Below the pieces are notes generated by a model that searched no databases, was not told the origin of the DNA, and was given only the letters and a program-made list of their open reading frames with translations. 35,139 nucleotides of DNA from Clostridia bacterium. Its GTDB lineage: Bacteria; Bacillota; DSM-521; Neomoorellales; JACIYF01. Positions 8,287 to 35,098 of this stretch are shown piece after piece (positions within the stretch are counted from its first letter, which is position 1; every line of letters begins with the position of its first letter). The stretch lies in assembly GCA_014360065.1 (NCBI GenBank), contig JACIYF010000016.1:1-35139 (forward strand), given 5' to 3'. The position numbers and the translations under genes were made by a program.

Positions 8287-8316
8287 GAAAACCCCGCTTT
8301 ATAAAGCGGGGTTTTC
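8287..8316. terminator. Bidirectional rho-independent terminator between mtnP and the M42 genes
   Basis: A perfect 30-bp palindrome (GAAAACCCCGCTTTA at 8287-8301 and its exact complement at 8302-8316). It is A-rich on one side and T-rich on the other, so it can work for both converging transcripts. Its right half is also coding sequence: bases from 8299 on encode the last residues (ENPAL) and stop of the minus-strand M42 gene. Confidence 0.85.
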
Positions 8317-9297
8317 CAGTAGGGCCACCAAGAGCTTGACTGCGTTTTCCAGGTCATCTAGATCGATCATTTCGTTGGGCGTATGACCATACCGACAGGG
8401 TAGGGAAAGTACACCAGAAGGTATGCCTTCGCGGGCGATATGGATGGTCCCGGCATCGGTCCCGCCGTGGGTAAGTACTTCTATTTGGTAGGGAATGCTC
8501 CTCATTTCCGCAGTCTCGACCATCAGCCTTTTAATTGCCGGATGGGCCACCAACAACCGGTCCATGACTTTGATGGCTGGTCCCTTGCCTAGCTCTACTG
8601 CCATAGGTGGTTTGCTCTCCGGCGTATCTCCAGTAAGGGTAATGTCTACCGCCAAGGCGACATCGGGATCGATCCCAAAAGCTGCCGTTCTCGCTCCTCT
8701 GGCCCCAACTTCTTCTTGCACAGAAAAGACGAAATAAAGAGCCTTGGGAGTTGACGGCCGCCTCTTGATGGTTTCGATCAGAATGGCACAGCCAGCCCGG
8801 TCGTCAAGGGCCTTGGCCATTAATCGATTACCTAAAACAGCGGGTTGACTGTGAAATACGGCCATATCGCCCACGGCAACTTTGGCTTTGGCATCCTCTC
8901 GATCCTTGGCACCGATATCGATGTAGAGCTTGGAAAGTTGGAGGTTTTTAGGATCTTCTAAAGGCTCAGAGTAAATGGCCCCAATGGTTCCGTTACCAAA
9001 CACAACCTGGCTCCCAAGCAAGATGCTTGGCGATTGCCCACCCACATTGGTAAAGCGTAGAAAGCCATGTTCGTCGATGTAAGTTATCATTAAGGCGATC
9101 TCATCCATGTGGGCAGACATCATTATTTTTCGGCCCTCGCCACGGCGAACCGCAACCAAATTGCCCAGAGGGTCGGTCTTAATCTCGTCAACATAGGCAA
9201 ATATTTCTTGCTCAATAAGTTGGCGTACCAGGTCCTCTCGACCTGAAGCGCCGAAGGTTTGGGAAAGCTGAACTAAAATCTCTTGTAAGTTACTCAT
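8299..9297 (-). CDS. M42 family metallo-aminopeptidase, third gene of the array
   Basis: 332 residues from ATG 9297. M42 enzymes are dinuclear aminopeptidases that usually build dodecameric tetrahedral (TET) particles and trim short peptides. The ligand set is complete: His in SAHMDEIALM, Asp in ALDDRAGC, the catalytic and ligand Glu pair in VQEEVGARGA, Asp in LAVDITLTGDTPE, and His in CRYGHTPNE; THGGTDAG is also conserved. The start overlaps the stop of the upstream M42 gene as ATGA, which shows translational coupling. Its 3' end runs into the palindromic terminator shared with mtnP. Endoglucanase labels sometimes given to this family are unlikely to be right. Confidence 0.92.
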   Translation of the reverse strand: MSNLQEILVQLSQTFGASGREDLVRQLIEQEIFAYVDEIKTDPLGNLVAVRRGEGRKIMMSAHMDEIALMITYIDEHGFLRFTNVGGQSPSILLGSQVVFGNGTIGAIYSEPLEDPKNLQLSKLYIDIGAKDREDAKAKVAVGDMAVFHSQPAVLGNRLMAKALDDRAGCAILIETIKRRPSTPKALYFVFSVQEEVGARGARTAAFGIDPDVALAVDITLTGDTPESKPPMAVELGKGPAIKVMDRLLVAHPAIKRLMVETAEMRSIPYQIEVLTHGGTDAGTIHIAREGIPSGVLSLPCRYGHTPNEMIDLDDLENAVKLLVALLENPAL

Positions 9298-10349
9298 TGT
9301 AGGAGCCCCCTTCTCTCCATATCCCTCAAAAATTCCAGCACTAGTTGGTAGGTATTCTCCATGTCAACTTTATCCAGCAGAGAGGCCGGCGAGTGAATGT
9401 AGCGGGCAGGCACTGACACTACCGCTGCTGGCACTCCAGCCCTGGTCAGGCTTATGGCCCCAGCATCGGTGCCACCGGTGCCTGCCTGCTTGAGCTGGTA
9501 CGGTATATTATTGGCCTCAGCAATGGCAACTAGCCGCTGCCAAAGGCGAGGGGGAGACACTAGGGACCGGTCCATAACAGTTATTACCGGTCCTTGTCCC
9601 AGCGAAGAACAATACTCAGCCTCCTTACTCTCCGGTACATCCGAAGCAGTAGTCACTTCGATAGCCAAAGCTACCTGGGGTTCTATCCGATAGGCTGCTA
9701 CCTGGGCGCCTCGAAGTCCGACTTCTTCTTGAGCAGTAAAAGTATAGTAGACGGGAAGGGACAGGTCGCGGCATTGAACCATCAAATCCAAGAGGATTGC
9801 GCAACCGGCTCGGTCGTCTAAGGCCTTGGCGCGGATCCTCCTTTCCCCCAATTCCGTATAAGAAGTAGCAAATACGACTGCATCTCCGATCTTGACCAGC
9901 TTCTCTGCTTCTTCCTTACTATTGCATCCTAGGTCGATAAATAGGTCCTTGACCTTCAAGGCACGATTCCGTTCTTCTTTTTCCTGAAGATGGATTGGCT
10001 TAGCACCAATTACGCCCGGTATCCGATCCTTACCTACCAAGACTGGTTTGGATACCAAGACCCGGGGATCGATGCCGCCAAGAGGTCGGAATCTCAGCCA
10101 ACCAGAAGCTTCTATGTAGGTAATCATCATTCCAACTTCGTCCATGTGGGCTGATAGCATAACCCTTGGTTTGGTAGCAGAGGGATCAGACTGGTTTCTG
10201 GGGGCAACGATTAAGTTGCCTAAGGCGTCAACGACCATGCCGGAGTTAAATTCTGGCAAGGCCTCAGCGATATACCTGCGAAGAAGCTGGCGTATTTCGC
10301 TCTCATGACCCGAAGGGCCTGAAGCCTCAGCCAATTCTTTTAGAAGCAT
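9294..10349 (-). CDS. M42 family metallo-aminopeptidase, second gene of the array
   Basis: 351 residues from ATG 10349, preceded by GAGGAGC on the minus strand. It is the same family as its two neighbours: SAHMDEVGMM, ALDDRAGC, AQEEVGLRGA, GGTDAGAISL and ARYIHSPASL are all present. At the position where the neighbours have a ligand Asp (LAVDIT, IAIDVC) it reads AIEVTTASDVPE, so a Glu may replace the metal-binding Asp; this could alter metal preference or specificity. It overlaps the upstream gene by 10 bases and the downstream gene by 4, so the three genes form one tightly coupled unit. Confidence 0.92.
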   Translation of the reverse strand: MLLKELAEASGPSGHESEIRQLLRRYIAEALPEFNSGMVVDALGNLIVAPRNQSDPSATKPRVMLSAHMDEVGMMITYIEASGWLRFRPLGGIDPRVLVSKPVLVGKDRIPGVIGAKPIHLQEKEERNRALKVKDLFIDLGCNSKEEAEKLVKIGDAVVFATSYTELGERRIRAKALDDRAGCAILLDLMVQCRDLSLPVYYTFTAQEEVGLRGAQVAAYRIEPQVALAIEVTTASDVPESKEAEYCSSLGQGPVITVMDRSLVSPPRLWQRLVAIAEANNIPYQLKQAGTGGTDAGAISLTRAGVPAAVVSVPARYIHSPASLLDKVDMENTYQLVLEFLRDMERRGLLQ

Positions 10350-11395
10350 ACTAGCTCCTCCTTGTAAGCAGGGGTTACTGTCGCAATAAAGCTCGCCAGT
10401 AGCTGGCCGGTTTTGCGGATATCAGCAAGGGCCAATGTTTCTACCGAGGTGTGCATGTAGCGAAGGGGTATGGATACCAAAGCCGTGGGTACACCAGATT
10501 GAGCCATTTGCAGGGCAAAGGCATCAGTTCCTTCAGGGCTGGGGGAGGGGTCCGGTTGCCATGGGATACCCCGCTCTTCTGCTATCCGCTTGAGCCAAAC
10601 GAAAAGGGCGGGGTGAACGTGGGGGCCAATGCCCAGTGCTGGCCCTTTTCCAAGCTTGGCAGTATCCTCCTCGGGAGCGCCAGGCATGTTACCGTGACAA
10701 ACATCGATGGCGATGGCCAGGTCGGGGTTGATGCGAAAGGAGCTTACGGTGGCGCCTCGGTACCCCAACTCTTCCTGTACCGAAGCTATGGCAAAGACAT
10801 CGGCTTGGTGTTTGATTAAGCTTAATTCCCTCAGGCATTCCAGAATGGCGGCTGTACCGGCCCGGTCATCTAAAGCTTTGCCAGCTACTACACCATTTTG
10901 AAGGGTGAGCAGTTTTCGATCCACAGTTGCCATATCACCTATACGGATTAGTTTCCGAACCTGCTCCTCGGACCGGCCAGTATCAATGAACATATCCTCT
11001 ATCTTCGGAGCTTTCTGTTGTTCATTGCTATCCTGAAGATGGGGCGGCTTGGCGCCAATGACGCCCAATACCGGTTCGGAACCATTAATGACCACTTCTT
11101 GACCAACCAAGGTACGCTGGTCTATGCCTCCCGAAGTAGCAAAGCGCAAAAACCCTCCCTTTTCTATTTTGGTAATTACCAAACCAATTTCGTCGGCGTG
11201 AGCAACCAGCATTATGCGAGGGCGAGGTTCAGTTCCCATGCCGTACTTTATCCCGGTAACGTTGCCTAGCCTATCCGGTTGGCATTCGTCCAAAAATGGC
11301 TGCCAGGCTGCGGCTATCGATAGCGCCACTTCCCCCTCGTAGCCAGATACACCCACAAGCGGTGAAACTAAACGTAGGTAGTCAAGACAATCCAC
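10340..11395 (-). CDS. M42 family metallo-aminopeptidase, first gene of the array
   Basis: 351 residues if started at GTG 11395, which sits 6 bases after GGAGGG (minus strand). An in-frame TTG at 11416 would place that ribosome binding site inside the gene. The active-site set is intact: LVAHADEIGLV, ALDDRAGTA, VQEELGYRGA, IAIDVCHGNMPG and LRYMHTSVE. It begins VDCLDYLRLVSPLVGVSGYEGEV, the usual M42 N-terminal region. It is the first gene of the minus-strand array and is read from an extended -10 promoter about 55 bases upstream, opposite the triple-HTH regulator. Its sequence is clearly diverged from the other two, so the array is an old duplication. Confidence 0.92.
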   Translation of the reverse strand: MDCLDYLRLVSPLVGVSGYEGEVALSIAAAWQPFLDECQPDRLGNVTGIKYGMGTEPRPRIMLVAHADEIGLVITKIEKGGFLRFATSGGIDQRTLVGQEVVINGSEPVLGVIGAKPPHLQDSNEQQKAPKIEDMFIDTGRSEEQVRKLIRIGDMATVDRKLLTLQNGVVAGKALDDRAGTAAILECLRELSLIKHQADVFAIASVQEELGYRGATVSSFRINPDLAIAIDVCHGNMPGAPEEDTAKLGKGPALGIGPHVHPALFVWLKRIAEERGIPWQPDPSPSPEGTDAFALQMAQSGVPTALVSIPLRYMHTSVETLALADIRKTGQLLASFIATVTPAYKEELVCF

Positions 11396-11447
11396 CAAGC
11401 ACCCTCCAGTTTCCAAAATTAGGCTAGCTTAAAGCCCGATACTTTAG

Positions 11448-11528: not shown

Positions 11529-11569
11529 ATTGGATGGGAACCAATTTCTCAAATGGGAGCGAAAGAACA

Positions 11570-12373
11570 ATGCTGGTACGCGGAGAGAGGATTCGGAAGT
11601 TCCGTGAAGAAAGAGGTTATTCTCTGGCTGAGTTCGCTAGCAAGGCCAATGTATCGATTTCTTATTTAAGTGAAATCGAAAGAGGTGCTAAAAAACCTTC
11701 TCTTCGCACCTTGGACCGCATTGCCCAGACTCTAAACGTATCCCGGGCCCAGTTGGTCGAACTGGACGGGGACATCAAAGGTATTAGCCTTGGGGACAAG
11801 GTACGCTTACTCAGGGAGGAAAAAAACTGGACTCTCAATCAGCTAGCAGAGAAGGCGGGTATATCCATTTCCTATTTAAGTGAGATTGAGCGGGGAAATG
11901 TTTATCCGGCTGTGCACACAGTCCGCCGCTTAGCAGAAGAGCTGGGTGTTTCACCCTCAGTTTTGGTAGGACAGGGCGGTGCCCTAGGCCACAAGATCCG
12001 GAAGGCACGGGAAGAACAAGGTTTGACCCAGGCAGAGCTGGCCAGGCTGGCGGGGGTATCCGGGGGGCTGATTGGTCAAATTGAGCATGGCAAGGTTCAG
12101 CCTTCCTTGCAAACGGTGGAGAAAATCGCGGGGGTACTGGGTATGTCCCCCTGTTACTTTATTGTGGAAGATGTCGGCCTGGAAGACATGGTTCAAGTCA
12201 TGGGCCCAGGGATGCGGGAAGTGCTGAGCGACCCTAAGGTGCAGTCAGTTCTGCGGCTAATCTGCAACTGCAGTAGTGAGGAGATAAAGTTCATTCTAAA
12301 TTTCATCCAACTGTATAAACGCTCTCACCCGGGCTTTAGCTCCCCAGAAGTAGAGTCGGGGGATATTGAATAA
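11570..12373 (+). CDS. Transcriptional regulator with three tandem XRE-type HTH domains
   Basis: 267 residues from ATG 11570 (GGGAG 11555-11559 upstream). An in-frame ATG at 11534 lies at or before the expected transcription start and is not preferred. It has three complete Cro/C1-type HTH units: residues about 6-60 (IRKFREERGYSLAEFASKAN), 75-130 (VRLLREEKNWTLNQLAEKAG) and 140-195 (IRKAREEQGLTQAELARLAG). The first two share SISYLSEIERG in the recognition region, while the third reads SGGLIGQIEHG. No sugar- or metal-binding cupin domain follows; the last 65 residues are helical (MREVLSDPKVQSVLRLI). It is divergent from the M42 array and upstream of dacF, so either could be a target. Single or double HTH copies are usual, and three is uncommon. 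Confidence 0.88.
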   Translation: MLVRGERIRKFREERGYSLAEFASKANVSISYLSEIERGAKKPSLRTLDRIAQTLNVSRAQLVELDGDIKGISLGDKVRLLREEKNWTLNQLAEKAGISISYLSEIERGNVYPAVHTVRRLAEELGVSPSVLVGQGGALGHKIRKAREEQGLTQAELARLAGVSGGLIGQIEHGKVQPSLQTVEKIAGVLGMSPCYFIVEDVGLEDMVQVMGPGMREVLSDPKVQSVLRLICNCSSEEIKFILNFIQLYKRSHPGFSSPEVESGDIE

Positions 12374-21522: not shown

Positions 21523-22173
21523 TTGCAGCAGGATGTACTAGAAAGAATCATTAAGGGCCGACGTTCTATCCGCAGGTGGGAAGACCGAGAGGTAGCTGAT
21601 GAGATGCTCCTTAAGGCCATTGAGTTGGCTACTTGGGCTCCCAATGGCGGGAACTTTCAGGGGTGGCGCTTTTACGTTATAAAGAATCGGGAAGTTATTG
21701 GCGCCGTTGCTGATGCTGTGCAACGAACCGTGGATACCATGGCTTCTTGGCCTGAAGCCCAACAAATTGGTGCCAATGTGGAGCCATGGCGTCAGCTGGC
21801 CGGCTTTTTCCGCACAGCTCCCGTCGCCATTGCTGTTTGTTGTACCCGTTACCATTCCCTAGCCGATCGGTTGGTGGAGGCTCGCGGCTCATCCGATCCC
21901 CTAGCGGTGAAGATCCAACATGGGCGTGCTATTGCCAACAGCCGGATTCAGTCGATTGGAGCTGCCATCGCCTTAATGTTGTTGGCACTTCATGAGATGG
22001 GTTTGGGCGCGGTGTGGATGACTGGCCCGGCCCAGGCGAAGGAGGAGATTGAAGAGCTGCTAAAGATTCCTCCGGAGTACGATTTCGTGGCTTTGGTTCC
22101 AGTGGGTTATCCTGCCGAGCAGCCTACTTCGTCTCGCCGGCCGGTACAAGAAGTGGTGGAGTTTATCAGATAG
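21523..22173 (+). CDS. Nitroreductase-family FMN-dependent oxidoreductase
   Basis: 216 residues from TTG 21523, with GGAAGGTGATG (21509-21519) upstream. Family motifs are the opening RRSIRRWEDREV with the phosphate-binding Arg residues, ELATWAPNGGNFQGWRFYVI (FMN contact), and the C-terminal ALHEMGLGAVWMTGP. These enzymes are dimeric flavoproteins that reduce nitro compounds, quinones, enones or other small electrophiles with NAD(P)H. The central part contains RYHSLADRLVEARGSSDPLAVKIQHGRAIANSRIQS in place of the usual linker. The gene sits 22 bases after csrA and before the flaG promoter, inside a motility cluster where it has no obvious role. Confidence 0.88.
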   Translation: MQQDVLERIIKGRRSIRRWEDREVADEMLLKAIELATWAPNGGNFQGWRFYVIKNREVIGAVADAVQRTVDTMASWPEAQQIGANVEPWRQLAGFFRTAPVAIAVCCTRYHSLADRLVEARGSSDPLAVKIQHGRAIANSRIQSIGAAIALMLLALHEMGLGAVWMTGPAQAKEEIEELLKIPPEYDFVALVPVGYPAEQPTSSRRPVQEVVEFIR

Positions 22174-24908: not shown

Positions 24909-24948
24909 TTTGTCGAAAAAAGTTTTGTCCTAGCAGGATTTTGTCAAA
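24909..24948. promoter_or_regulatory. Cluster of Spo0A-box-like sequences
   Basis: Compared with the Spo0A (0A) box TTTGTCRAA: TTTGTCGAA at 24909-24917 and TTTGTCAAA at 24940-24948 match at every position, and TTTGTCCTA at 24924-24932 matches 7 of 9. The starts are 15 and 16 bases apart, so the two perfect boxes are 31 bases apart, close to three helical turns. They lie about 80-120 bases upstream of the putative -10 of the flgB leader. Binding is inferred from the consensus only. Confidence 0.5.
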
Positions 24949-25064
24949 ACATGTGGAAACAAATACCTAGCCATGGAAAGAAATAACTATGGGAAGAAAA
25001 AGATAGCACAGGGGGAAAATTTTAGTACAATATATATCCTGGTTCTCATTGGCTTTCTGTGATC

Positions 25065-25087
25065 AAAGGATAAACAAAAGGATAAAC
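25065..25087 (+). repeat. 11-base direct repeat AAAGGATAAAC, two copies
   Basis: Exact copies at 25065-25075 and 25077-25087, separated by one base (period 12). They are placed between the -10-like element and the riboswitch. They would be in the 5' leader if transcription starts near 25037. Function unknown. Confidence 0.6.
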
Positions 25088-25108
25088 GGAATATCGGTTT
25101 CCGATTCC
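25088..25108 (+). other. Leader hairpin overlapping riboswitch P1
   Basis: ATCGG-TTT-CCGAT (25093-25105), with a GGA/TCC extension across a 2-base bulge (25088-25090 with 25106-25108). The 3' arm is also the 5' strand of riboswitch helix P1, so the two structures exclude each other. Confidence 0.5.
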
Positions 25109-25199
25109 ATAAAAGGCAATCTTCTCGAAAGAGAAAGAGCGCAAAGCCAAGGGTCTAAGGCTTCCTTGGGAAGCTATGATGGCTAGGCTGCTGGAATCG
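25102..25199 (+). promoter_or_regulatory. Cyclic-di-GMP-I riboswitch (GEMM-I class) in the flgB operon leader
   Basis: P1 is CGATTCCA (25102-25109) with TGGAATCG (25192-25199), 8 perfect pairs. The next helix is built from GGC (25115-25117) and GCC (25146-25148) around a hairpin with GAAA tetraloop (CTCGAAAGAG, 25124-25133), followed by the class hallmark GCGCAAAGCC (25139-25148). The third helix begins GGGTCTAAGG and contains TCTAAG...CTATGATGG (25154-25181), which resembles the tetraloop receptor that docks the GAAA loop. These elements are in the order and spacing of the c-di-GMP-I aptamer. The element precedes an intrinsic terminator and flgB, as in Clostridioides difficile, where c-di-GMP turns off the flgB operon. 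Confidence 0.9.
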
Positions 25200-25227
25200 C
25201 AGGTGATGGTTTTTTAACCGTTTCTTA

Positions 25228-25267
25228 GCAAGCCTGCCCGGCGCCTTGGCTGGGCAGGTTGCTTTTT
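25228..25267 (+). terminator. Intrinsic terminator of the riboswitch expression platform
   Basis: GCAAGCCTGCCC (25228-25239, with one bulged G) pairs with GGGCAGGTTGC (25252-25262), followed by TTTTT (25263-25267). It lies 42 bases before the flgB start. The 5' arm (AGCAAGCCT, 25227-25235) can alternatively pair with AGGCTGCT (25185-25192) in the aptamer, giving an antiterminator when the aptamer is unfolded. Confidence 0.87.
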
Positions 25268-25308
25268 AAAGGCACTATAGAATATCGTACTGCAAGGGGT
25301 GAAGGAAT

Positions 25309-25713
25309 ATGCTGGATACAACCACCATGGTAGCGTTGGTCAAAAATCTGGATGGGGCTGCTGCCCGCCAACGGGCTATTGCCAGCAATGTGGCTAACAT
25401 TGATACCCCGAACTATAAGCGATTAGTTGTACAGTTCGAAGATCAATTGCGAAAAGCTCTCATGGATAAGGGAGAACTGGCTCTGTGGACGACTCATCCC
25501 GGCCATATTAGCAATCTGCCCGAATTGGGGCAGATATCTCCCAAGGTAGTGCGGGACGAGAGCACTGCGATGCGAACCGATGGCAACAATGTTGACATTG
25601 AGCAAGAGATGATAGAGCTAGCTGCCAACACGCTCAATTACCAAATATCCTCGCAACAGCTAAACACCCGGCTGGCAATGCTTCGGTATGCCATCAATGA
25701 GGGGAGGCGATAG
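25309..25713 (+). CDS. flgB: Flagellar basal-body rod protein FlgB
   Basis: 134 residues from ATG 25309, with GGGGTGAAGGA upstream. FlgB is a proximal rod subunit. The N-terminal rod motif is ARQRAIASNVANIDTPNYKR (family SNxANxxTPxYK), and the C-terminal part has NNVDIEQEMIELAANTLNYQISSQQLNTRLAMLRYAI, also conserved. The length is normal. It is the first gene of the basal-body/hook operon and therefore the direct target of the riboswitch terminator. Confidence 0.96.
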   Translation: MLDTTTMVALVKNLDGAAARQRAIASNVANIDTPNYKRLVVQFEDQLRKALMDKGELALWTTHPGHISNLPELGQISPKVVRDESTAMRTDGNNVDIEQEMIELAANTLNYQISSQQLNTRLAMLRYAINEGRR

Positions 25714-25715
25714 GT

Positions 25716-26153
25716 TTGGCATGGTTCCAGGCTTTATCCATCAGCGGGTCGGGGCTGACCGCCCAGCGTCTGCGTTTGGATTTGATTTCTAGTAACCTAG
25801 CCAATATGGAGAGCACCAGGGGTGCCTATGGCGGTTACTATCGCCGGAAATTGCCGGTCTTTAGCGAATGCTTAGCCCAATCTTTGGACCCGTATGCCTG
25901 GGGTACCCAGGAGGCATTGGGCAGCGGAGTGCGGGTAGTGGCCGTAGTCGAGGACCCATCCCCACCCCGGTTGGTATACAATCCTTCGCATCCGGACGCA
26001 CGGCCTGACGGTTACGTTGCTTATCCCAACATCAACGTGGCCGATGAAATGGTTGATATGCTTACAGCGGCACGTTCATACGAGGCCAACGTAACTGCTT
26101 TTAATGCCGGCAAGAACATTATCCTCAAGGCCCTGGAGATCGGCCGAGGCTAA
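25716..26153 (+). CDS. flgC: Flagellar basal-body rod protein FlgC
   Basis: 145 residues from TTG 25716, 2 bases after flgB, with GGGGAGGCGATAGG (within the flgB end) as ribosome binding site. It is a rod protein with the shared axial motif SISGSGLTAQRLRLDLISSNLANMESTRGAYGGYYRRK. The C-terminal segment YPNINVADEMVDMLTAARSYEANVTAFNAGKNIILKALEIG is the standard FlgC end. The length is normal. Confidence 0.96.
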   Translation: MAWFQALSISGSGLTAQRLRLDLISSNLANMESTRGAYGGYYRRKLPVFSECLAQSLDPYAWGTQEALGSGVRVVAVVEDPSPPRLVYNPSHPDARPDGYVAYPNINVADEMVDMLTAARSYEANVTAFNAGKNIILKALEIGRG

Positions 26154-26166
26154 GGAGGCTTTTGCT

Positions 26167-26490
26167 ATGACCATTGCCAATTTGACGGCTATTGGCCCAG
26201 TTAGCAACTTGGTTTCTCCGCAAGGGGTGGCAAATCCACAAAACCAGCAGAGCCAACAAGGCTCTGCACCCCAATCATTTTTGACGGCGCTAAAGGACGC
26301 GTGGAATCAAGTGAACTACTTGCAGGAACAAGCTGATCAGGTAACTCAGGCCTATTTGGCGGGTCAAATCCAGGATGTGCATCAGGTGATGATTGCTACT
26401 GAAGAGGCCAATTTGGCGTTGCAACTGACGGTACAAATCCGTAACAAGATAATTGAGGCCTATCAAGAGGTTTCCCGGATGCAAATCTAG
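26167..26490 (+). CDS. fliE: Flagellar hook-basal body complex protein FliE
   Basis: 107 residues from ATG 26167, behind AAGGAGGC (26152-26159). The frame is open to 26104, but that part lies over the end of flgC. FliE joins the MS ring to the rod and is the first axial protein exported. The conserved C-terminal half reads QSFLTALKDAWNQVNYLQEQADQ, then DVHQVMIATEEANLALQLTVQIRNKIIEAYQEVSRMQI, ending at the usual place. The N-terminal third is Gln/Ser-rich and variable. Confidence 0.95.
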   Translation: MTIANLTAIGPVSNLVSPQGVANPQNQQSQQGSAPQSFLTALKDAWNQVNYLQEQADQVTQAYLAGQIQDVHQVMIATEEANLALQLTVQIRNKIIEAYQEVSRMQI

Positions 26491-26511
26491 GTCGCCAAAG
26501 GAAGGTCACAG

Positions 26512-28077
26512 ATGAATCTTAACGGACTCCTTATTCGCTTCAACCGTTGGTGGACGAACCTTAGTCCAACCAAAAAAATCGTATACCCGGCACTATTGGG
26601 AGTAGCGCTGGTTGCTATAGTTGTTGGCACCCAAAGGCTGACGCGGGTAGAATATGCTCCCCTATTCGGCAATTTGGATCCTCAAAGCGCCAGTGCGATT
26701 GTGGAAAAGCTGAAACAAGATAAGGTTCCGTATCAGCTGGCAGACAACGGCGCCACCATAATGGTGCCAAAGGATCAGGTATACGACCTCAGGCTGCAAA
26801 TGGCCGGTAGCGGTTTGGTAGCTGGAGGCGGAGGCAAGGGATTTGAGTTATTTGACCAGAATCAACTGGGATTGTCCGATTTTCAGCAACAAGTGGATTA
26901 CCAGAGAGCTTTACAGGTGGAGCTCCAACGAACCATTGGGTGGATGGATCAGGTGGACCAGGCCCGGGTGCATATTACCATGGCGCAACCGAGCCTTTAC
27001 AGCCAACAGGAAAAGCCTGCCCAAGCGGTAGTCAGCTTGCGGCTTAAGCCGATGGCCAAGCTCAGCCCTGAGCAAGTTAAGTCTATTGTTTACTTGGTTT
27101 CTGGCGCGGTGGACAATTTACCGCCAGAGAACGTTAAAGTAATTGATACCAGAGGCGAAGTGCTGAGCGACTTGATCCTAGCAGACCTGTCTAGCTCTTC
27201 AAGTTCTCCTTCCACTGGAGTTCAGCAGGAGTTAAAGCGTAACTTCGAACGCGACTTAGAAAAACGGATCACTCAAGTCTTGGACCAAGTCTTAGGGCCC
27301 AACAAAGCAGCGGTAATGGTTAGCGCCAATTTAGATTTTAGTCAACACGAAGTTACGCGGATTGAGTACGGCCCCAACAACGTATTACGTAGCGAACAGG
27401 TTATCCAGGAACAGACCACCGGCGCTGGCCCGACGGGAGGAATTCCTGGCACGCCATCCAATGTTGGCAATTATCCTATTCCCCAGACTGGTGGGCAGCA
27501 AGGTAGCAATCGGTCGCAAACTACCAGAAACTATGAGGTGACGCAAAACCAAGACCGGATAGTGTATGCGCCAGGTCGGTTACAGAACCTTTCAGCTTCA
27601 GTGGTGCTAGATGGGGCATTGCCGCCACAGACCATAAGCCAGGTGCAAAACCTGGTGGCAGCAGCTATTGGTTTTCAGCAGGCCAGGGGAGATCAGATTA
27701 ATGTCACCAGCATCCCGTTCGACCGAAGCTGGGAGCAGCAACAGCAGCAGGAAATGCAGCAAGCTGCTCAGGACGAGGCTCGTCGACAGGCCCTTAAACG
27801 ATACATCACCTTGGGAGCCATAGGGCTGGTAGCATTGCTGCTTGTAGTTGGCACCCTGATCTGGCTCAGGCGGCGTTCACAGGCGGTACCTGAGTTGGCA
27901 GGGGCAGAGCTTGCGGGCGTACCTGTGGCAGCCACAGGTGACGTAGCCCCCATAGAGTTGGCTCCGGAACAGCAAAAAGAGCGAGACCGGCAGGAGAAGG
28001 TGCGGGAGAGTATACGCAAGCAACCTGATCAGGCGGCGCAATTGTTGCGGACTTGGGTAGCTGAGGACCGGACGTAG
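26512..28077 (+). CDS. fliF: Flagellar MS-ring protein FliF
   Basis: 521 residues from ATG 26512. It forms the MS ring in the cytoplasmic membrane. The first membrane helix is at about residues 23-40 (IVYPALLGVALVAIVVGT). The ring-building motifs RBM1-RBM3 include VEYAPLFGNLDPQSASAIVEKL, the FELFDQNQLGLSDFQQQVDYQRALQVELQRTI core, and ARVHITMAQPSLYSQQEKPAQAVV. The second helix is at about 431-453 (LGAIGLVALLLVVGTLIWL). The C-terminal tail (to 521) ends SIRKQPDQAAQLLRTWVAED, the FliG-binding peptide. A Gly/Gln/Asn-rich loop (about 305-345) lies between the ring motifs, and a Gln-rich stretch precedes the second helix. Confidence 0.96.
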   Translation: MNLNGLLIRFNRWWTNLSPTKKIVYPALLGVALVAIVVGTQRLTRVEYAPLFGNLDPQSASAIVEKLKQDKVPYQLADNGATIMVPKDQVYDLRLQMAGSGLVAGGGGKGFELFDQNQLGLSDFQQQVDYQRALQVELQRTIGWMDQVDQARVHITMAQPSLYSQQEKPAQAVVSLRLKPMAKLSPEQVKSIVYLVSGAVDNLPPENVKVIDTRGEVLSDLILADLSSSSSSPSTGVQQELKRNFERDLEKRITQVLDQVLGPNKAAVMVSANLDFSQHEVTRIEYGPNNVLRSEQVIQEQTTGAGPTGGIPGTPSNVGNYPIPQTGGQQGSNRSQTTRNYEVTQNQDRIVYAPGRLQNLSASVVLDGALPPQTISQVQNLVAAAIGFQQARGDQINVTSIPFDRSWEQQQQQEMQQAAQDEARRQALKRYITLGAIGLVALLLVVGTLIWLRRRSQAVPELAGAELAGVPVAATGDVAPIELAPEQQKERDRQEKVRESIRKQPDQAAQLLRTWVAEDRT

Positions 28078-28088
28078 GGGTGGGATCG

Positions 28089-29099
28089 TTGGCAAAAGGG
28101 AAGGAACTTACTGGTTTAGAAAAAGCGGCCATATTCCTTATCACTATTGGTCCGGAGCTGTCGTCCCTAATACTCCGCGAGCTCTCCCAAGAAGAAATTG
28201 AGCGCATTAGCCAGCAAATTGCCAATACCAGCAAGGTTGATCCGGCGGTTCAGATAGAGGTGCTAGAAGAGTTCCTTCAGCTGAGTCAGGCGCAGCAATA
28301 CATCATCCGCGGAGGTATCGAGTACGCTCGGGAGGTGCTGGAAAGGAGCCTGGGGCCGACCAAGGCAGCAGAGATTATCCGGCGATTAACCGAAAGCTCG
28401 CGCATCAGGCCTTTTGGCTTAGTCAGAAAGACCGATCCCAAGCAGCTAGTTAACTTCATTAGCAATGAGCATCCTCAAACCATTGCCTTGATCCTGTCGT
28501 ATTTGGAGCCAGAACAGGCAGCAGTAGTTTTGAGTTCGCTTCCTCAGGAGGAACAGACTGAAATTGCCAAAAGGATTGCCATCATGGAGCGGACTTCGCC
28601 GGAGGTCGTTAGAGAAGTGGAAATCATCCTGGAACGTAAACTATCTTCATTGGTCAGCCAGGATTTTACCATAACTGGCGGCGTCAAGACCTTGGTGGAC
28701 ATACTTAACCGAGTTGACCGGGGCACTGAAAAGACCATTTTAGAGGCGCTAGAGCAGGAAGACCAGGAGCTAGCGGAAGAGATTCGGAAGCGGATGTTTG
28801 TCTTTGAGGACGTGGTTACCCTGGAGGACAGCGCTATTCGCCGCGTCTTGCGGGAGGTAGATACCAAAGATCTGGCTTATGCCCTTAAAGGTTCAAGCGA
28901 GGAAGTTCAGAAGCGTATTTTCAAGAATCTGTCCAAACGAGCTGTGGAAATGTTGCAAGAAGATATGGAGCTGTTAGGACCGGTACGTTTGCGAGACGTG
29001 GAGGAAGCCCAACAAAAAATTGTCCAGGTTATTCGCCGGCTGGATGAGACCGGGGAGATAATCATCTCGCGGGGTGGAGAAGATGCCATTGTCTTCTAG
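28089..29099 (+). CDS. fliG: Flagellar motor switch protein FliG
   Basis: 336 residues from TTG 28089, whose ribosome binding site (GGGGTGGGA, 28077-28085) contains the alternative GTG 28080. The resulting start MAKGKELTGLEKAAIFL matches the family. FliG is the rotor protein that contacts the stator. The N-terminal FliF-binding domain, the middle domain with the EHPQTIALILSYL motif, and the C-terminal torque domain with VFEDVVTLEDSAIRRVLREVDTKDLAYALKGSSEEVQKRIFKNLSKRA are all complete. Charged residues in the torque helix are present. The length is normal. The 3' end overlaps fliH. Confidence 0.96.
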   Translation: MAKGKELTGLEKAAIFLITIGPELSSLILRELSQEEIERISQQIANTSKVDPAVQIEVLEEFLQLSQAQQYIIRGGIEYAREVLERSLGPTKAAEIIRRLTESSRIRPFGLVRKTDPKQLVNFISNEHPQTIALILSYLEPEQAAVVLSSLPQEEQTEIAKRIAIMERTSPEVVREVEIILERKLSSLVSQDFTITGGVKTLVDILNRVDRGTEKTILEALEQEDQELAEEIRKRMFVFEDVVTLEDSAIRRVLREVDTKDLAYALKGSSEEVQKRIFKNLSKRAVEMLQEDMELLGPVRLRDVEEAQQKIVQVIRRLDETGEIIISRGGEDAIVF

Positions 29100-29805
29100 G
29101 GTGATTAAGCATGTGCCGGTTGACCCCGGGCGATTTCGAGAAATCTGCTTTACGCAAAGGCTTCAGGTGCAAGTTAATCACCCCGAGGCGTGCCCCAGTA
29201 ATACACTTGTTTCATCAGAAGCAGCCCGGGAAGAAGCTCAAGCCCTAATAAAGCAGGCAAAAGCTGAATCCGAGGCGCTGGTAGCTGCCGCCCAGCATGA
29301 AGCCCAGAGCATTAGAGCAGCAGCTGAGAAGGAGGGTTATCAAGCTGGGTACCAGGAGGGGCTTAGCCGTGGTTTGGAAGGTGCAAAACACGCCCGAACC
29401 CAGGCTGTAAAGGTCCTCAAGGAAGCACGGAAGCTAAAAAACAAAATAGTACTTGAGAGCGAGCAAGAGATCGTCCGCTTGGCCTTGCACATGGCGGAGA
29501 AGATTATTCGCAAAAGCGTGGAGCTCGATCCAGCTATCGTCGTATCCATCGCCCAAGAAGCGTTACGAAGACTTTGCGAAAACCAAGATTACATTATCTT
29601 TGCTCACCCATCAGACGCCGAGCTGATTCGGGAGAAGAAAGACGAACTCATGGCCAACCTGGACCACAGAGCTACCCTTCGTATCCTTCCGGATGAGAGC
29701 ATAGAGAAGGGCGGCTGCCGGGTGGTTACCGAGGATGGAGAACTAGTTGCAACTATAAATAGCCAGCTGCAAGAGTTGAAACGCTTATTGGCTGGTGATG
29801 ACTGA
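29083..29805 (+). CDS. fliH: Flagellar assembly protein FliH (export ATPase regulator)
   Basis: 240 residues from ATG 29083; GTG 29074 and TTG 29089 are alternatives, and all overlap the end of fliG. FliH binds FliI and docks it at the export gate. The middle part is a long Ala/Glu-rich helix with GxxxG-type repeats (EGYQAGYQEGLSRGLEGAKHA), typical of FliH. The C-terminal domain is AEKIIRKSVELDPAIVVSIAQEALRRL, then a stator-like fold shared with V-type ATPase subunit E. Its stop overlaps the fliI start (TGATG). Confidence 0.93.
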   Translation: MPLSSRVIKHVPVDPGRFREICFTQRLQVQVNHPEACPSNTLVSSEAAREEAQALIKQAKAESEALVAAAQHEAQSIRAAAEKEGYQAGYQEGLSRGLEGAKHARTQAVKVLKEARKLKNKIVLESEQEIVRLALHMAEKIIRKSVELDPAIVVSIAQEALRRLCENQDYIIFAHPSDAELIREKKDELMANLDHRATLRILPDESIEKGGCRVVTEDGELVATINSQLQELKRLLAGDD

Positions 29806-31142
29806 TGTACGTTAACCTAGATTTTCAAAATTACCACCGGCAAATTGACGAATCTGACCTGTTAAGGGCCGTGGGTAAGGTTACCGAGGTAGTCGGCTTA
29901 ACAGTGGAAGTGGCAGGGATAACGGCTTCGGTTGGGGAGATCTGCTTGATCCATGTGCCCGGGAACGCTCACCCCGTTCAAGCAGAAGTAGTTGGTTTTC
30001 GGGCCCGACATACCTTGGTTATGCCCCTAGGTGAACTGGGGGGAATCGCCCCTGGCTGTCCAGTGGTGCCAACTAGAATGCCACACCGCGTCATTGTAGG
30101 TTCGGCAGTTCTGGGTCGGGTGCTGGACGGCTTGGGCCAACCTATCGATGGACAGGGAATTCCTCTGCGAGGACAGTGGTATAAAGTGAACAATTCACCT
30201 CCGGGCCCCTTGCAGCGGAGGCGGATTACGGAACCTTTGGAAACGGGAATCAAGTGCATAGACACGCTTTTAACCTGTGGTCAGGGGCAGAGAATAGGTA
30301 TTTTTTCTGGCAGCGGGGTTGGAAAAAGTACCCTCCTGGGAATGATAGCGCGCCACAGCAGCGCAGATGTTAATGTAATTGCCCTGGTTGGGGAGCGAGG
30401 CCGAGAGGTATTGGACTTCATTGAAAAAGATTTAGGCCCCAAAGGTTTGGAACGGTCGGTAGTGGTAGTAGCTACCTCCGACCAGCCAGCATTAGTTCGA
30501 ATCAAGTCGGCTTTGGTAGCAACTACCTTGGCCGAGTACTTCCGGGATCAGGGCATGACGGTAATGTTAATGATGGATTCAATCACCCGTTTTGCGATGG
30601 CAATGCGAGAGGTAGGGCTAGCGATTGGTGAACCACCGGCTACCAGGGGTTATCCACCCTCGGTATTTGCCGGCATGGCCCGGTTGCTGGAGCGTTCCGG
30701 AACCTCGCTAACCGGTTCCATCACTGGGCTTTACACGGTGTTAGTGGACGGGGATGACATGAATGAGCCCATAGCAGACGCTGTTCGTGGCATTTTGGAC
30801 GGTCACATCGTCCTCTCACGGGAACTGGCCTCTCGCAACCACTTTCCGGCAATTGATGTCTTGCAAAGCGTAAGCCGGTTGATGCCGGAACTGGTCTCTG
30901 AGTCTCATAAAAACTTGGCAGCTAAGGTTAGAGATATTCTGGCCACATATCGTGAGTCTGAGGACTTGATTAATATTGGTGCCTACAAGGCTGGGTCCAA
31001 CCCGCGCATCGACGAGGCCATAAGATTGCACGGGCCCATAGAGAGCTTTCTCCGGCAGGGGATCGAAGAAGTCTTTCGCCTTGGAGATAGCGTTGCTGCC
31101 TTAGAAGCAATACTGGGGCAGGGAGGAGCGGGGGATGCGTAG
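29805..31142 (+). CDS. fliI: Flagellum-specific ATPase FliI
   Basis: 445 residues from ATG 29805, overlapping the fliH stop. It is the hexameric ATPase of the flagellar type III export system. The N-terminal beta barrel is at about 15-95. Walker A is SGSGVGKSTLLG near residues 169-180, and ALVGERGREVLDFIEKDLG and Walker B VMLMMDSITRFAMAMREVGLA follow. GEPPATRGYPPSVFAGMARLLERSG is the F1-like signature loop. The length is normal. It lies between fliH and fliJ, its two partners. Confidence 0.97.
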   Translation: MYVNLDFQNYHRQIDESDLLRAVGKVTEVVGLTVEVAGITASVGEICLIHVPGNAHPVQAEVVGFRARHTLVMPLGELGGIAPGCPVVPTRMPHRVIVGSAVLGRVLDGLGQPIDGQGIPLRGQWYKVNNSPPGPLQRRRITEPLETGIKCIDTLLTCGQGQRIGIFSGSGVGKSTLLGMIARHSSADVNVIALVGERGREVLDFIEKDLGPKGLERSVVVVATSDQPALVRIKSALVATTLAEYFRDQGMTVMLMMDSITRFAMAMREVGLAIGEPPATRGYPPSVFAGMARLLERSGTSLTGSITGLYTVLVDGDDMNEPIADAVRGILDGHIVLSRELASRNHFPAIDVLQSVSRLMPELVSESHKNLAAKVRDILATYRESEDLINIGAYKAGSNPRIDEAIRLHGPIESFLRQGIEEVFRLGDSVAALEAILGQGGAGDA

Positions 31143-31596
31143 ATTTGTATTCGGCTTAGAGAAGGTGTTGGATTATCGCCAAGCCATAGAAAAAGCAGAA
31201 AAGGCTCATCTGGGAGAAGCAGAACGATACCTGGAAAGGGAACGGGAGGTCCTGGCAGCTTGGTGCCAACGCTGGGAAAAGGAGTTGGAGGTAACACCGG
31301 CAGGGACAATCGATATTGGCCAGTGGCAACACCGGGATCAGTACTTGGGTTATGTGGATATGAGAATGGAAACGCAGAAGCAAGTAGTTGGACAGGCTGA
31401 GAACCAGGTAGAAGCCCAGCGGCAGAAGGTTATAGCTGCAATGCAGGAACGGGAAGTGGTAAGCAAGTTAAAGGATAGAAAGCGCAGGCAGTATATCCAG
31501 GAAAGTCTGCGGCAGGATCAAAAGGTGCTAGATGAGGCGGCCAGTAGTAGGTTCTTGCTCAAAAAGCGAACCAAAGGTGCAGGCCAGGTGCTGTAA
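31135..31596 (+). CDS. fliJ: Flagellar export protein FliJ
   Basis: 153 residues from ATG 31135, overlapping the fliI stop by 8 bases, with GGAGGAGCGGGGG upstream. FliJ is a coiled-coil stalk protein that sits in the FliI hexamer and contacts the export gate. The N terminus RRFVFGLEKVLDYRQAIEKAEKAHLGEAERYLERE is characteristic (F-x-L-x-x-V-L-x-x-R), and the rest is highly charged helix with no globular domain. The length is normal. Confidence 0.93.
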   Translation: MRRFVFGLEKVLDYRQAIEKAEKAHLGEAERYLEREREVLAAWCQRWEKELEVTPAGTIDIGQWQHRDQYLGYVDMRMETQKQVVGQAENQVEAQRQKVIAAMQEREVVSKLKDRKRRQYIQESLRQDQKVLDEAASSRFLLKKRTKGAGQVL

Positions 31597-31647
31597 TTGG
31601 GATAGGCCAAGGCTTAAGGAATCAGGAGCTGAAAGGAGGTGATGAAT

Positions 31648-32922
31648 ATGATCGGGGTTGTGACTGGAGAAGCCTTGCCGGCAGCTGGACAGGCAAACAC
31701 CAAGGTCAACCAGGAGAATCTCCCAGCTCTAGCCGAGGCGGGCTTTGTAGAAATGTTGTTGTCGCTTCTGGCCGACCCGTTGGTGCTGGCTCGGCCAACT
31801 CCAAGAGATTCGCAGAGTCTGATCGAAACAGGGCTCGGGCATCCGGAGATGATAAGCAACATGCCAGAGTATCCGTTACCAGGCGGTAATGCTGGCTTGA
31901 GTTTGGACCATGGAGCTCAGGCTATAAGCAACCACTCAGCCGAGATGGCGGTGCTCCAGGGAACTGAGGGGAAGGACCCAACAGTTATCACCGGCCCGAA
32001 AGGTCAGGTGGTGCTGGCGGATACTGTAGTGCCTGGTGGTACTGCTGCATCCACCGTCCAAGGGACTGAGCCGATAATATCTGGTCGGTTGGCATTGTCT
32101 CCGGGAGTGCTCGGCTCAGAGGGCGTTGAGGAAAAGGGGTTGCTGGGAAGGCTTCAGGCGAAAGCGGAGAAAGGAGAACATGGTCAGCGAGCCATTAGCG
32201 CTAGACCTGGAAAAGCTGAAGTAGCTTCTTGGGAAGGACCTAAACCTCAAGTGGGGATGAACCTGGTTTCTCGCTCGGAACCCGCCTTTGGTATGAGAAT
32301 GGCGGCCACTTTGGATTCTGAAAATGTGCCCGGCGAGATCCTGATTAGGCACCTACAGGCGGAAGCTTCCGGGGGGGAGGTAGCGATGGCAAAAAAGAAC
32401 CAATCGCTGCCCGCTCCACCGAACGGTGCTGTAGGTGAGCAAGTGGTGGTGTGGTCTCAAAACCGTCTGGACTTTCCCCAGGTGATGACGGCCGCACCTG
32501 AAAGGCTGCTCCAAGAAGTCCTGGTCTATGCTCGGCCTGAGTCGACCAAGGCTAGGCTCAAGTTAGAGACTGATGGGCTTGGGGAAATCCGGGCTAACTT
32601 GGTGTGGAAAGCAGGGCAATTGGATGCGAGCTTCCAGGTAAGTCACCAGCAGGCGGCCCACTTTTTGCAGCAAGGCTTCGGGGAGCTGCGAGATAGATTG
32701 GCCAGCCAGCAGGTGCCGGTAGGTGAATTGATGGTGACGGTAGAGGATGGACAGCAAAACCATAGTTTCCAGCACACCCACCAGCAGGGACAGGAGGTGC
32801 TGAAGCAAGAGGTAGGCGCGGTCACCAGGGTTGGAGGCAGTTACAGTACTGCCCAAGCTGGAGGTAGAACAGCTGGCCCAGCTGAGGAGTTAGGTTGTCG
32901 AGATGTAAACCTGTTAGTGTAG
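31648..32922 (+). CDS. fliK: Flagellar hook-length control protein FliK
   Basis: 424 residues from ATG 31648, 7 bases after the near-perfect site GAAAGGAGGT (31631-31640). FliK measures the hook and triggers the export switch to filament proteins. The N-terminal two thirds are low in conservation, polar and probably extended (the ruler part). The FliK C-terminal domain lies at about residues 285-375: LKLETDGLGEIRANLVWKAGQLDASFQVS, then LRDRLASQQVPVGELMVTVE. A Gln/His-rich segment follows. It is in the usual place between fliJ and flgD. Sequence identity outside the C-terminal domain cannot be judged. Confidence 0.9.
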   Translation: MIGVVTGEALPAAGQANTKVNQENLPALAEAGFVEMLLSLLADPLVLARPTPRDSQSLIETGLGHPEMISNMPEYPLPGGNAGLSLDHGAQAISNHSAEMAVLQGTEGKDPTVITGPKGQVVLADTVVPGGTAASTVQGTEPIISGRLALSPGVLGSEGVEEKGLLGRLQAKAEKGEHGQRAISARPGKAEVASWEGPKPQVGMNLVSRSEPAFGMRMAATLDSENVPGEILIRHLQAEASGGEVAMAKKNQSLPAPPNGAVGEQVVVWSQNRLDFPQVMTAAPERLLQEVLVYARPESTKARLKLETDGLGEIRANLVWKAGQLDASFQVSHQQAAHFLQQGFGELRDRLASQQVPVGELMVTVEDGQQNHSFQHTHQQGQEVLKQEVGAVTRVGGSYSTAQAGGRTAGPAEELGCRDVNLLV

Positions 32923-32952
32923 CAATTACGATATCGACGAGGGGGAAGGAAC

Positions 32953-33393
32953 TTGAGTCCAGTAGGAGCTATCAATTCGTCTAATCCACAGGTTGCGGCA
33001 GCCACTAGTTTGGCTAGCACGAATGTTAGTCTTAATGGGCTGACCAAGAACACGTTCTTGCAAATGCTGGCCGCTCAGATTCGCTATCAGGACCCAATGG
33101 CTCCTATCGATAACAGCACCTTAGTGAGCCAAATGGCGCAATTGGCCACTATGGAGGTTCTCCAGAACTTATCTGAGCAGGTCAGCCGCTTTGAGCAGTA
33201 TGAGAAGGTGATGTTGAGCGCGACTCTGATCGGGAAACAGGTGTCGGTGCGCGACCACGATGGCAGGAGCATTGAGGGGGCAGTGGAGGGTATTTCCTTT
33301 GAGAAGGGCCAAGTCTGGGTAAAACTGGGCGATTCTAGCTACCCGGTGGAATCGGTGGAAACGGTTTGGTCCCACGGTGGTGAAACTAAATGA
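32953..33393 (+). CDS. flgD: Flagellar hook capping/assembly protein FlgD
   Basis: 146 residues from TTG 32953, with GGGGGAAGGAAC directly upstream. FlgD is the scaffold at the tip of the growing hook. The conserved N-terminal part is KNTFLQMLAAQIRYQDPMAPIDNSTLVSQMAQLATMEVLQNL. A short C-terminal SH3-like region follows (LIGKQVSVRDHDGRSIEGAVEGISFEKGQVWVKLGD). It lacks the larger tudor/FnIII insert of proteobacterial FlgD, as is common in clostridia. Its last bases overlap the start of the next gene. Confidence 0.95.
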   Translation: MSPVGAINSSNPQVAAATSLASTNVSLNGLTKNTFLQMLAAQIRYQDPMAPIDNSTLVSQMAQLATMEVLQNLSEQVSRFEQYEKVMLSATLIGKQVSVRDHDGRSIEGAVEGISFEKGQVWVKLGDSSYPVESVETVWSHGGETK

Positions 33394-33773
33394 GCGAAGG
33401 TGTTTCTTTAACCACGGGTGTCAAGGGGCCTAGCCCAGGTGGACCAGGAAGTGCCTTGGGCCAAGTTCGAGGGGCGGTAAAGTTTGACCAGGTGCTGGAG
33501 CAGGCCCAACGAGAAATGCGACTGCCACGGTTTTCGGCCCACGCCCTGGCTAGGTTGGAGCAGCGCCAGATTCACTTGACTGCCAAGCAAGTGGACGAGA
33601 TTGGTAGGGCTATGGCTCGAGCTCGAGAAAAAGGAGCGCGCCAATCCCTGCTACTTTATGGGGATCTGGCTATGGTAGCCAGCATCGGCAACAACACCAT
33701 AGTTACCGCTCTGAATGGCGCGGAAATGAAGGAGCGAGTTTTTACCAACATCGACAGCGCGGTAATCATTTGA
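33390..33773 (+). CDS. Flagellar operon protein of the TIGR02530 type
   Basis: 127 residues from ATG 33390, overlapping flgD by 4 bases (ATGA). It resembles the small protein commonly found between flgD and flgE in Firmicutes: FDQVLEQAQREMRLPRFSAHALARLEQRQIHLTAKQVDEIGRAMARAREKGARQSLLL, then a conserved ending VASIGNNTIVTALNGAEMKERVFTNIDSAVII. The molecular role of this family is not known to me; the position suggests hook assembly. No membrane segment or metal motif is visible. Confidence 0.85.
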   Translation: MSEGVSLTTGVKGPSPGGPGSALGQVRGAVKFDQVLEQAQREMRLPRFSAHALARLEQRQIHLTAKQVDEIGRAMARAREKGARQSLLLYGDLAMVASIGNNTIVTALNGAEMKERVFTNIDSAVII

Positions 33774-33789
33774 CGCCGCGGATAAGTTA

Positions 33790-33838
33790 GGGCCGGTCCG
33801 CCAGGGGGCCCACAGCCGCGGAGCGACGGAAGCGGCTG
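33790..33838 (+). other. GC-rich double hairpin in the leader of flgE
   Basis: Two consecutive stem-loops: GGGCC (33790-33794) with GGCCC (33807-33811), then CAGCCGC (33813-33819) with GCGGCTG (33832-33838). The loop of the second contains two GGA triplets. The element is far more GC-rich than its surroundings and ends 8 bases before the flgE ribosome binding site. An 8-base direct repeat GCCGCGGA (33775 and 33815) is also present. Confidence 0.5.
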
Positions 33839-33859
33839 AGAGCATAAGGAGGGAACATC

Positions 33860-35098
33860 ATGCTTAGATCCCTGTTTGCGGCAGTTTCAGGTATGCAAAA
33901 CATGCAAACCAAAATTGACGTTATTGGTAACAACATAGCTAACGTCAATACCACCGGATTTAAATACGCCCGGGTAAAGTTTCAGGACATGTTGAGTCAG
34001 ACCTTGCGCGGTGCTTCTGCGCCCCAGCAGGGCCGGGGCGGCATCAATCCTTCCCAGGTAGGCCTGGGGATGGTTCTGGGCTCTATCGACAACATCCATA
34101 CCCAAGGTAGCTTGCAACCTACCGGGCGCCCAGAGGACCTGGCTATCCAAGGGAATGGCTTTTTTGTGGTTAGCGATGGTTCGAGGGTTTTCTATACTCG
34201 CGACGGATCTTTCTCCCGGGGAAGCGATGGAGACTTGGTTAATGCTGCTACCGGCATGAAAGTACTAGGCTGGACTGCGGCTTCAGACGGAACCATCGAC
34301 CCTACTGGACCTGTCGGTCCCATCAATATTCCCTTGGGCGAGAAAACCATAGCCAAGGCAACGGAGAATATAGTCTTTATGTATAACCTGGACGCAAACG
34401 CTGCAGTTAACGATACCCATTCAGTGTCAGTGGATGTTTATGATAGCCTCGGGGTCCGGCACACGCTTACATTCACCTTTAAGAAAGGAACGAACCCCAA
34501 CGAATGGACTTGGGATGTGACAGGAGGAACTGATGCTGGTACAATCGACAAGCCAACGGACACTACCCTCAAGTTTAACATGGATGGATCACTGGAATCG
34601 CCAACTACCCCCCCGGAAATTAAGTTTACCCCTACCAACCCTAATGCTGCCGAAGTAAGTATCAAATTAAACTTTCGCGCTGTTACCCAGCTGGCGGCCC
34701 CTAGTACCCTGGATTATAAATATCAGGATGGATTTCCTCCTGGGGAGCTGGAGGGGTTTACCATTGGCTCGGACGGAGTGATAAGCGGGACTTACTCCAA
34801 TGGGCTGGTCAGGAACTTAGGTCAGATTGCCCTGGCGGCTTTTGGTAACCCCGAAGGTTTGCTCAAAGCCGGGGACAACTTGTACCAGATAACCAGCAAT
34901 TCGGGCGAACCCCGGATAGGGACTCCAGGCACCCAGGGGCGAGGAACGATCCAGACGGCTACCTTGGAGATGTCCAACGTAGATCTGGCCCGGGAACTGA
35001 CGGAGATGATCATTACCAGTCGGGCGTTCCAAGCTAATTCCCGGGTGGTGACTACTTCCGACGAGATCTTGCAGGAGCTGATTAACTTGAAACGTTAG
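33860..35098 (+). CDS. flgE: Flagellar hook protein FlgE
   Basis: 412 residues from ATG 33860, behind AAGGAGGGA (33846-33854). It is the major hook subunit. The N-terminal axial motif is LRSLFAAVSGMQNMQTKIDVIGNNIANVNTTGFKYARVKFQDM. The D1 part includes RPEDLAIQGNGFFVV, the central part has the flagellar basal-body D2-type region (VDVYDSLGVRHTLTFTF), and the C-terminal helix is SNVDLARELTEMIITSRAFQANSRVVTTSDEILQELINLKR. The length is close to the family norm. FlgF and FlgG share the ends but are shorter (about 250-270), so FlgE is the better call, also by position after flgD. Confidence 0.95.
   Translation: MLRSLFAAVSGMQNMQTKIDVIGNNIANVNTTGFKYARVKFQDMLSQTLRGASAPQQGRGGINPSQVGLGMVLGSIDNIHTQGSLQPTGRPEDLAIQGNGFFVVSDGSRVFYTRDGSFSRGSDGDLVNAATGMKVLGWTAASDGTIDPTGPVGPINIPLGEKTIAKATENIVFMYNLDANAAVNDTHSVSVDVYDSLGVRHTLTFTFKKGTNPNEWTWDVTGGTDAGTIDKPTDTTLKFNMDGSLESPTTPPEIKFTPTNPNAAEVSIKLNFRAVTQLAAPSTLDYKYQDGFPPGELEGFTIGSDGVISGTYSNGLVRNLGQIALAAFGNPEGLLKAGDNLYQITSNSGEPRIGTPGTQGRGTIQTATLEMSNVDLARELTEMIITSRAFQANSRVVTTSDEILQELINLKR

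Follow-up and report, generated by a model that had tools for sequence, protein, structure and literature searches.

The flgB locus and its leader

The window, i.e. the whole stretch of 35,139 nucleotides analyzed here, ends in a run of flagellar genes that starts with flgB and is preceded by a leader containing an RNA aptamer and an intrinsic terminator (Table 1). The source genome is available as a draft of 242 contigs with 99% completeness. The earlier note had placed a basal-body and hook operon, flgB to flgE, under the control of this leader. With respect to gene content this description holds; as the gene run reaches the contig end, however, flgB to flgE is only the visible part of the operon. 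Elsewhere in the window, three consecutive M42 aminopeptidase genes (8299-11416, minus strand), a gene for a protein made up almost entirely of three Cro/C1-type helix-turn-helix domains in tandem (11534-12370, plus strand) and a nitroreductase gene located between csrA and flaG in the late flagellar cluster (21523-22173, plus strand) were noted. A viral-contig scan with FliG yielded a single contig.

Table 1. Features of the flgB leader and operon in window positions
Feature	Position	Strand	Basis or remark
Candidate imperfect sigma-H-type element GCAGGATTT-N11-GTGGAAACA	24933-24961	+	Two mismatches in the -10 part; proposed from aligned upstream regions
Putative sigma-H-type promoter, exact RNAGGAWWW-N12-RNNGAATWW match	25065-25094	+	Predicted start at about 25101, at P1
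P1 5' strand CGATTCCA	25102-25109	+	8 bp with 25192-25199
c-di-GMP-I aptamer (P2, P3, GAAA loop)	25105-25195	+	RF01051, 62.3 bits; residue mapping
P3 5' strand AGCCAAGG	25145-25152	+	Alternative partner 25244-25251 (outer antiterminator helix)
P3 3' strand end, ligand contact and P1 start AGGCUGCU	25185-25192	+	Alternative partner 25227-25235
P1 3' strand TGGAATCG	25192-25199	+	8 bp with 25102-25109
Intrinsic terminator hairpin, followed by TTTT (to 25267)	25227-25263	+	-28.3 kcal/mol, z -4.2
Terminator loop and start of 3' arm CCUUGGCU	25244-25251	+	Complementary to 25145-25152
flgB, first operon gene	25309-25713	+	Ribosome site at about 25295-25306
flgC, fliE, fliF, fliG, fliH, fliI, fliJ, fliK, flgD, Flagellar_put, flgE	25716-35098	+	Rest of the visible operon

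The aptamer and its ligand pocket

As a check of its GEMM-I assignment the earlier note had proposed a covariance search with the Rfam c-di-GMP-I model. This search returned RF01051 with an E value of 4.8e-10 and a score well above the gathering score of 35 bits, as the sole Rfam match in the 35-kb window, and at the level of the covariance model confirms a class I c-di-GMP aptamer upstream of flgB. The P1-P2-P3 three-way junction is present, and the 8-bp P1, which reaches just beyond the model bounds, as well as the GAAA tetraloop (25127-25130) lie where they had been drawn before. A receptor-like segment is present as well, as assessed by sequence similarity to the RF01051 model only.

In class I aptamers the key residues are G14, G21, C46, A47 and C92 (PMC9049102). 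Vc2 numbering was transferred to the window via the G21-C46 pair, and the mapping was checked against PMC9049102 and PMC9262584. The ligand-contact residues are kept, with G20 corresponding to G25115, A47 to A25143 and C92 to C25191. The reading of C25191 as C92 agrees with the C. difficile riboswitch Cd1, where the ligand partner is the first of two Cs (PMC9262584). A natural C92U specificity variant at U25192 was considered and ruled out, as U25192 corresponds to C93, its partner being A25109 (G14). In most relatives this innermost P1 pair, G14-C93, is a G-C pair; the A-U pair of the window is, in the aligned sequences, a two-sided change that preserves P1.

The source genome contains seven GGDEF matches and eight HD_5 (HD-GYP type) matches, making c-di-GMP metabolism plausible from its gene content; a search of the same genome for EAL gave no match. 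In one GGDEF protein (L163, C62:12800-15200) the GHxxGD motif reads GHFVAN, with N replacing D; the same position is Ser in cGAMP-making Hypr enzymes. An A at position 20 marks cGAMP-sensing GEMM-Ib riboswitches. It is present in the flgB-leader aptamers of L033 (1155-1243), L058 (2319-2397) and L100 (2264-2339).

Terminator and antiterminator

The terminator consists of the arms AGCAAGCCTGCCC (25227-25239) and GGGCAGGTTGCT (25252-25263) followed by TTTT, and its fold is far more stable than the shuffle mean of -16.6 kcal/mol. It ends 42 bases ahead of the flgB start, at the distance reported before. The antiterminator pairing of 25185-25192 with 25227-25235, which had been drawn with one bulged base, exists in this form, the bulged base being A25230. 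Unconstrained folding furthermore revealed a second helix of 8 perfect pairs between the P3 5' strand and the terminator loop with the start of the 3' arm, which encloses the first antiterminator helix.

The contribution of this outer helix is apparent from the computed energies. For an RNA starting at 25101 and ending at 25243, the first antiterminator helix alone gives -44.8 kcal/mol as compared to -47.8 kcal/mol for the aptamer and is at least 3 kcal/mol worse, while with an RNA starting at 25085 it is about 2 kcal/mol better than the aptamer. Thus, the pairing proposed in the earlier note stands, but its sufficiency does not: by itself it is usually not enough in the energy model, and it is with the outer helix that the antiterminator can compete with the aptamer. 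With both helices and a transcript end at 25251, the antiterminator reaches -66.3 versus -54.3 kcal/mol for the aptamer (5' end 25085) or -56.5 versus -49.3 kcal/mol (5' end 25101), and is therefore ahead by 7 to 12 kcal/mol. With the outer helix included, the unliganded RNA of this model prefers the antiterminator immediately before the terminator closes. In the full-length RNA the combination of aptamer and terminator is preferred (-74.9 versus -71.4 kcal/mol for the 5' end 25085 and -72.0 versus -63.6 kcal/mol for the 5' end 25101), so that the preference for the antiterminator lasts for only about 10 nt of elongation. Since the full-length equilibrium prefers the terminator even without ligand, switching would have to be kinetic, and since folding lags synthesis in the polymerase exit channel, the switching positions given here are approximate.

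How readily an equally good antiterminator would arise by chance was estimated by replacing the terminator. With other hairpins of the source genome, sampled as 400 kb of stretches, an anti-aptamer fold as strong as the native one was obtained in 0/72, 2/72 and 1/72 cases for the 5' ends 25085, 25101 and 24971, respectively; with permuted versions of the terminator itself the corresponding numbers were 2/200, 14/400 and 13/200. In this model the chance would thus be about 0-6.5%, varying with the assumed transcript 5' end. When the terminators of 15 flgB leaders from the order were exchanged between their aptamers, native pairings were stronger than swapped ones and none of 5000 permutations was as good, although kinship and common base composition may inflate this result. 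With -14.8 versus a mean of -6.0, the hairpin of the window itself came first among the 15. A search of 399 genomes of the phylum yielded no relative near enough to follow covariation in the window antiterminator at single bases, nearly all matches comprising the aptamer core only.

Candidate promoters

Two candidate promoters precede the aptamer, and both would give transcripts containing the whole aptamer (Table 1). The proximal one fits the sigma-H-type consensus RNAGGAWWW-N12-RNNGAATWW without mismatch; exact matches to it occurred 7 times in the 435 kb sampled as compared to 0-1 times in Markov nulls. The distal, imperfect element is closer than the proximal one to the element of the relatives, which sits roughly 32-44 nt ahead of the aptamer in most of them. 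The sigma-H consensus with a variable spacer, RNAGGAWWW-N10-12-RNNGAATWW, was detected 35-41 nt before the aptamer in 12 of 17 relatives, or in 15 of 17 under relaxed rules. The conservation of a similar motif ahead of the flgB aptamer in most relatives suggests that early flagellar genes of the order are under sigma-H control. Among the proteins of the source genome is one matching spore_sigH (375.6 bits, cut-off 294.8). A literature search for sigma-H control of flagellar genes retrieved nothing relevant.

A sigma-D-like promoter overlapping P1 (TAAA at 25083, CCGATT at 25101) was rejected because its spacing is too short, and the search for a sigma-A promoter upstream of the aptamer gave no good match. 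A hairpin at 25088-25108 may serve as an anti-P1 element, provided that the RNA begins upstream of about 25088; a transcript from the 25065 promoter would lack it.

Conservation of the flgB riboswitch

Only one c-di-GMP-I riboswitch was found in the source genome, the relatives in the order mostly carrying several. Of the 19 other genomes of the order with a flgB match, 18 have a c-di-GMP-I element immediately upstream of this gene, as compared to a c-di-GMP-I element or variant, some of them in tandem, at only 6 of 40 more distant flgB loci. Together with the single copy in the source genome, this distribution makes the flgB position look like an old, retained riboswitch site of the order. 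The expression platform appears to have diverged more than the aptamer, as several leaders of genus g3 build their antiterminator with the P1 5' side, e.g. CCGGGCGTC with GACGCCCGG in L047 (9 perfect pairs). In the gap between terminator and flgB, many genus-g3 relatives (within L034-L048) contain paired palindromes such as GGACTTTAGTCC and a conserved stretch such as TAAAGTGGTAACTGTTGGAGAA, which are candidate operators or an internal promoter.

Proposed mechanism and alternative explanations

We consider it highly probable, on the basis of the modelled folds, that the leader is a class I c-di-GMP riboswitch acting as a transcription-termination OFF switch for the flgB operon. At low c-di-GMP the nascent RNA would give up the aptamer fold, the P3 3' strand would pair with the terminator 5' arm, and the P3 5' strand, now free, with the terminator loop and the start of the 3' arm, so that the polymerase would read through and the basal body and hook genes would be expressed. 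Binding of c-di-GMP would lock P1 and the two P3 strands; the terminator would form (25227-25267) and transcription would halt. For this, the ligand would have to keep the aptamer intact through roughly ten nucleotides of elongation. We infer the OFF direction because a bound aptamer would block both alternative helices and leave the terminator free: aptamer and terminator are compatible, antiterminator and aptamer mutually exclusive. The prediction of the earlier note that high c-di-GMP silences the operon is therefore supported in its direction by the energy model.

The most serious alternative, which we nevertheless regard as improbable, is that a genuine, c-di-GMP-binding aptamer simply lies next to a constitutive attenuator or is part of a broken switch, termination then hardly depending on the ligand. 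Some class I riboswitches of C. difficile are indeed non-functional (PMC6366702), the terminator far outweighs the antiterminator in the full-length RNA, and for one assumed 5' end the chance of such an antiterminator is as high as 6.5%. Against this stand the two nested alternative helices, the advantage of own over swapped terminators across the leaders and the fact that flgB has kept the aptamer across the order despite differing terminators. An ON switch, in which the ligand-bound aptamer promotes read-through, has a precedent in the class I member Bc2 of B. thuringiensis (PMC6366702). Here, however, the sole terminator-blocking fold that was found destroys the aptamer, and since the aptamer (25102-25199) and the terminator do not overlap, the bound aptamer could not block the terminator, leaving an ON switch very unlikely.

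Equally slight is the probability of translational control, by which the ligand would alter how accessible the flgB ribosome site is. A terminator ending so close to flgB could in principle bring this site within reach of leader folding, but a strong terminator is present, and enforcing the aptamer leaves the predicted accessibility of the site unchanged (0.60 unpaired, as compared to 0.58 without it). As to the ligand, recognition of another cyclic dinucleotide, 3',3'-cGAMP, in the manner of GEMM-Ib riboswitches would fit the Asn for Asp replacement in L163, but the Asp is retained in the other six GGDEF matches, the specificity position 20 is G (G25115) and not A, and C92 is C. We therefore give cGAMP very little credence. 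Within the preferred reading of a c-di-GMP-dependent OFF switch, a more specific picture can be put forward tentatively, and with rather less than even confidence. It is that of a two-strand clamp, in which one P3 strand is used a second time to bind the terminator 5' arm and the other to bind the loop and 3' arm, in an RNA that perhaps starts within 1-2 bases of P1 from a sigma-H-type promoter; in the order, the platforms would turn over while aptamer and position stay. If this holds, expression of the flagellar operon would respond to both sigma-H and the level of c-di-GMP, and c-di-GMP, motility and sporulation-phase transcription might be linked through sigma-H.

Comparison with known systems

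Cd1 (Cdi1_3), located before flgB in C. difficile, is a proven OFF termination switch (PMC6366702, PMC3649979), whose antiterminator is formed by the aptamer 3' strand and terminator strands (PMC9262584). The window leader shares with it the aptamer class, the target operon and, as predicted by folding, the terminator-based OFF architecture and an antiterminator that combines the aptamer 3' strand with strands of the terminator. The likeness to the C. difficile flgB leader with switching elements of its own, as put forward in the earlier note, is thus borne out, the differences lying in the details of the platform. In Cd1, 496 bp separate the promoter from flgB and termination yields an RNA of about 160 nt, whereas the window terminator lies 42 bases before flgB. 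Cd1 is without a canonical P1 beside the pocket, in contrast to the 8-bp P1 found here. A further, possible difference is that in the window the P3 5' strand would also capture the terminator loop.

The flgB leaders of the order (L033-L051) likewise have an aptamer of this family directly before flgB, in most cases a sigma-H-type motif upstream, and antitermination potential. They differ in that several genus-g3 leaders use the P1 5' side for the antiterminator in place of the P3 strands used in the window, and in that their terminators are mostly shorter. Naturally occurring combinations of one aptamer with several expression platforms, all at the same gene, can be compared within the order. 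Variant or tandem aptamers of the same clan, also in flgB context, occur in L059, L070 and L100, whereas the window has a single plain class I aptamer; tandem c-di-GMP-I/c-di-GMP-I-GGC arrangements before flgB were seen in L059 (Symbiobacterium, 2079-2371) and L100 (a Peptococcaceae MAG, 1805-2339).

Overall, a Cd1-like architecture was known already, and it is the platform detail that is new. The case is well explained and unsurprising and its interest is mainly comparative. The proven connection of flgB and c-di-GMP in C. difficile would be extended to another clostridial order, where the element is nearly universal at flgB.
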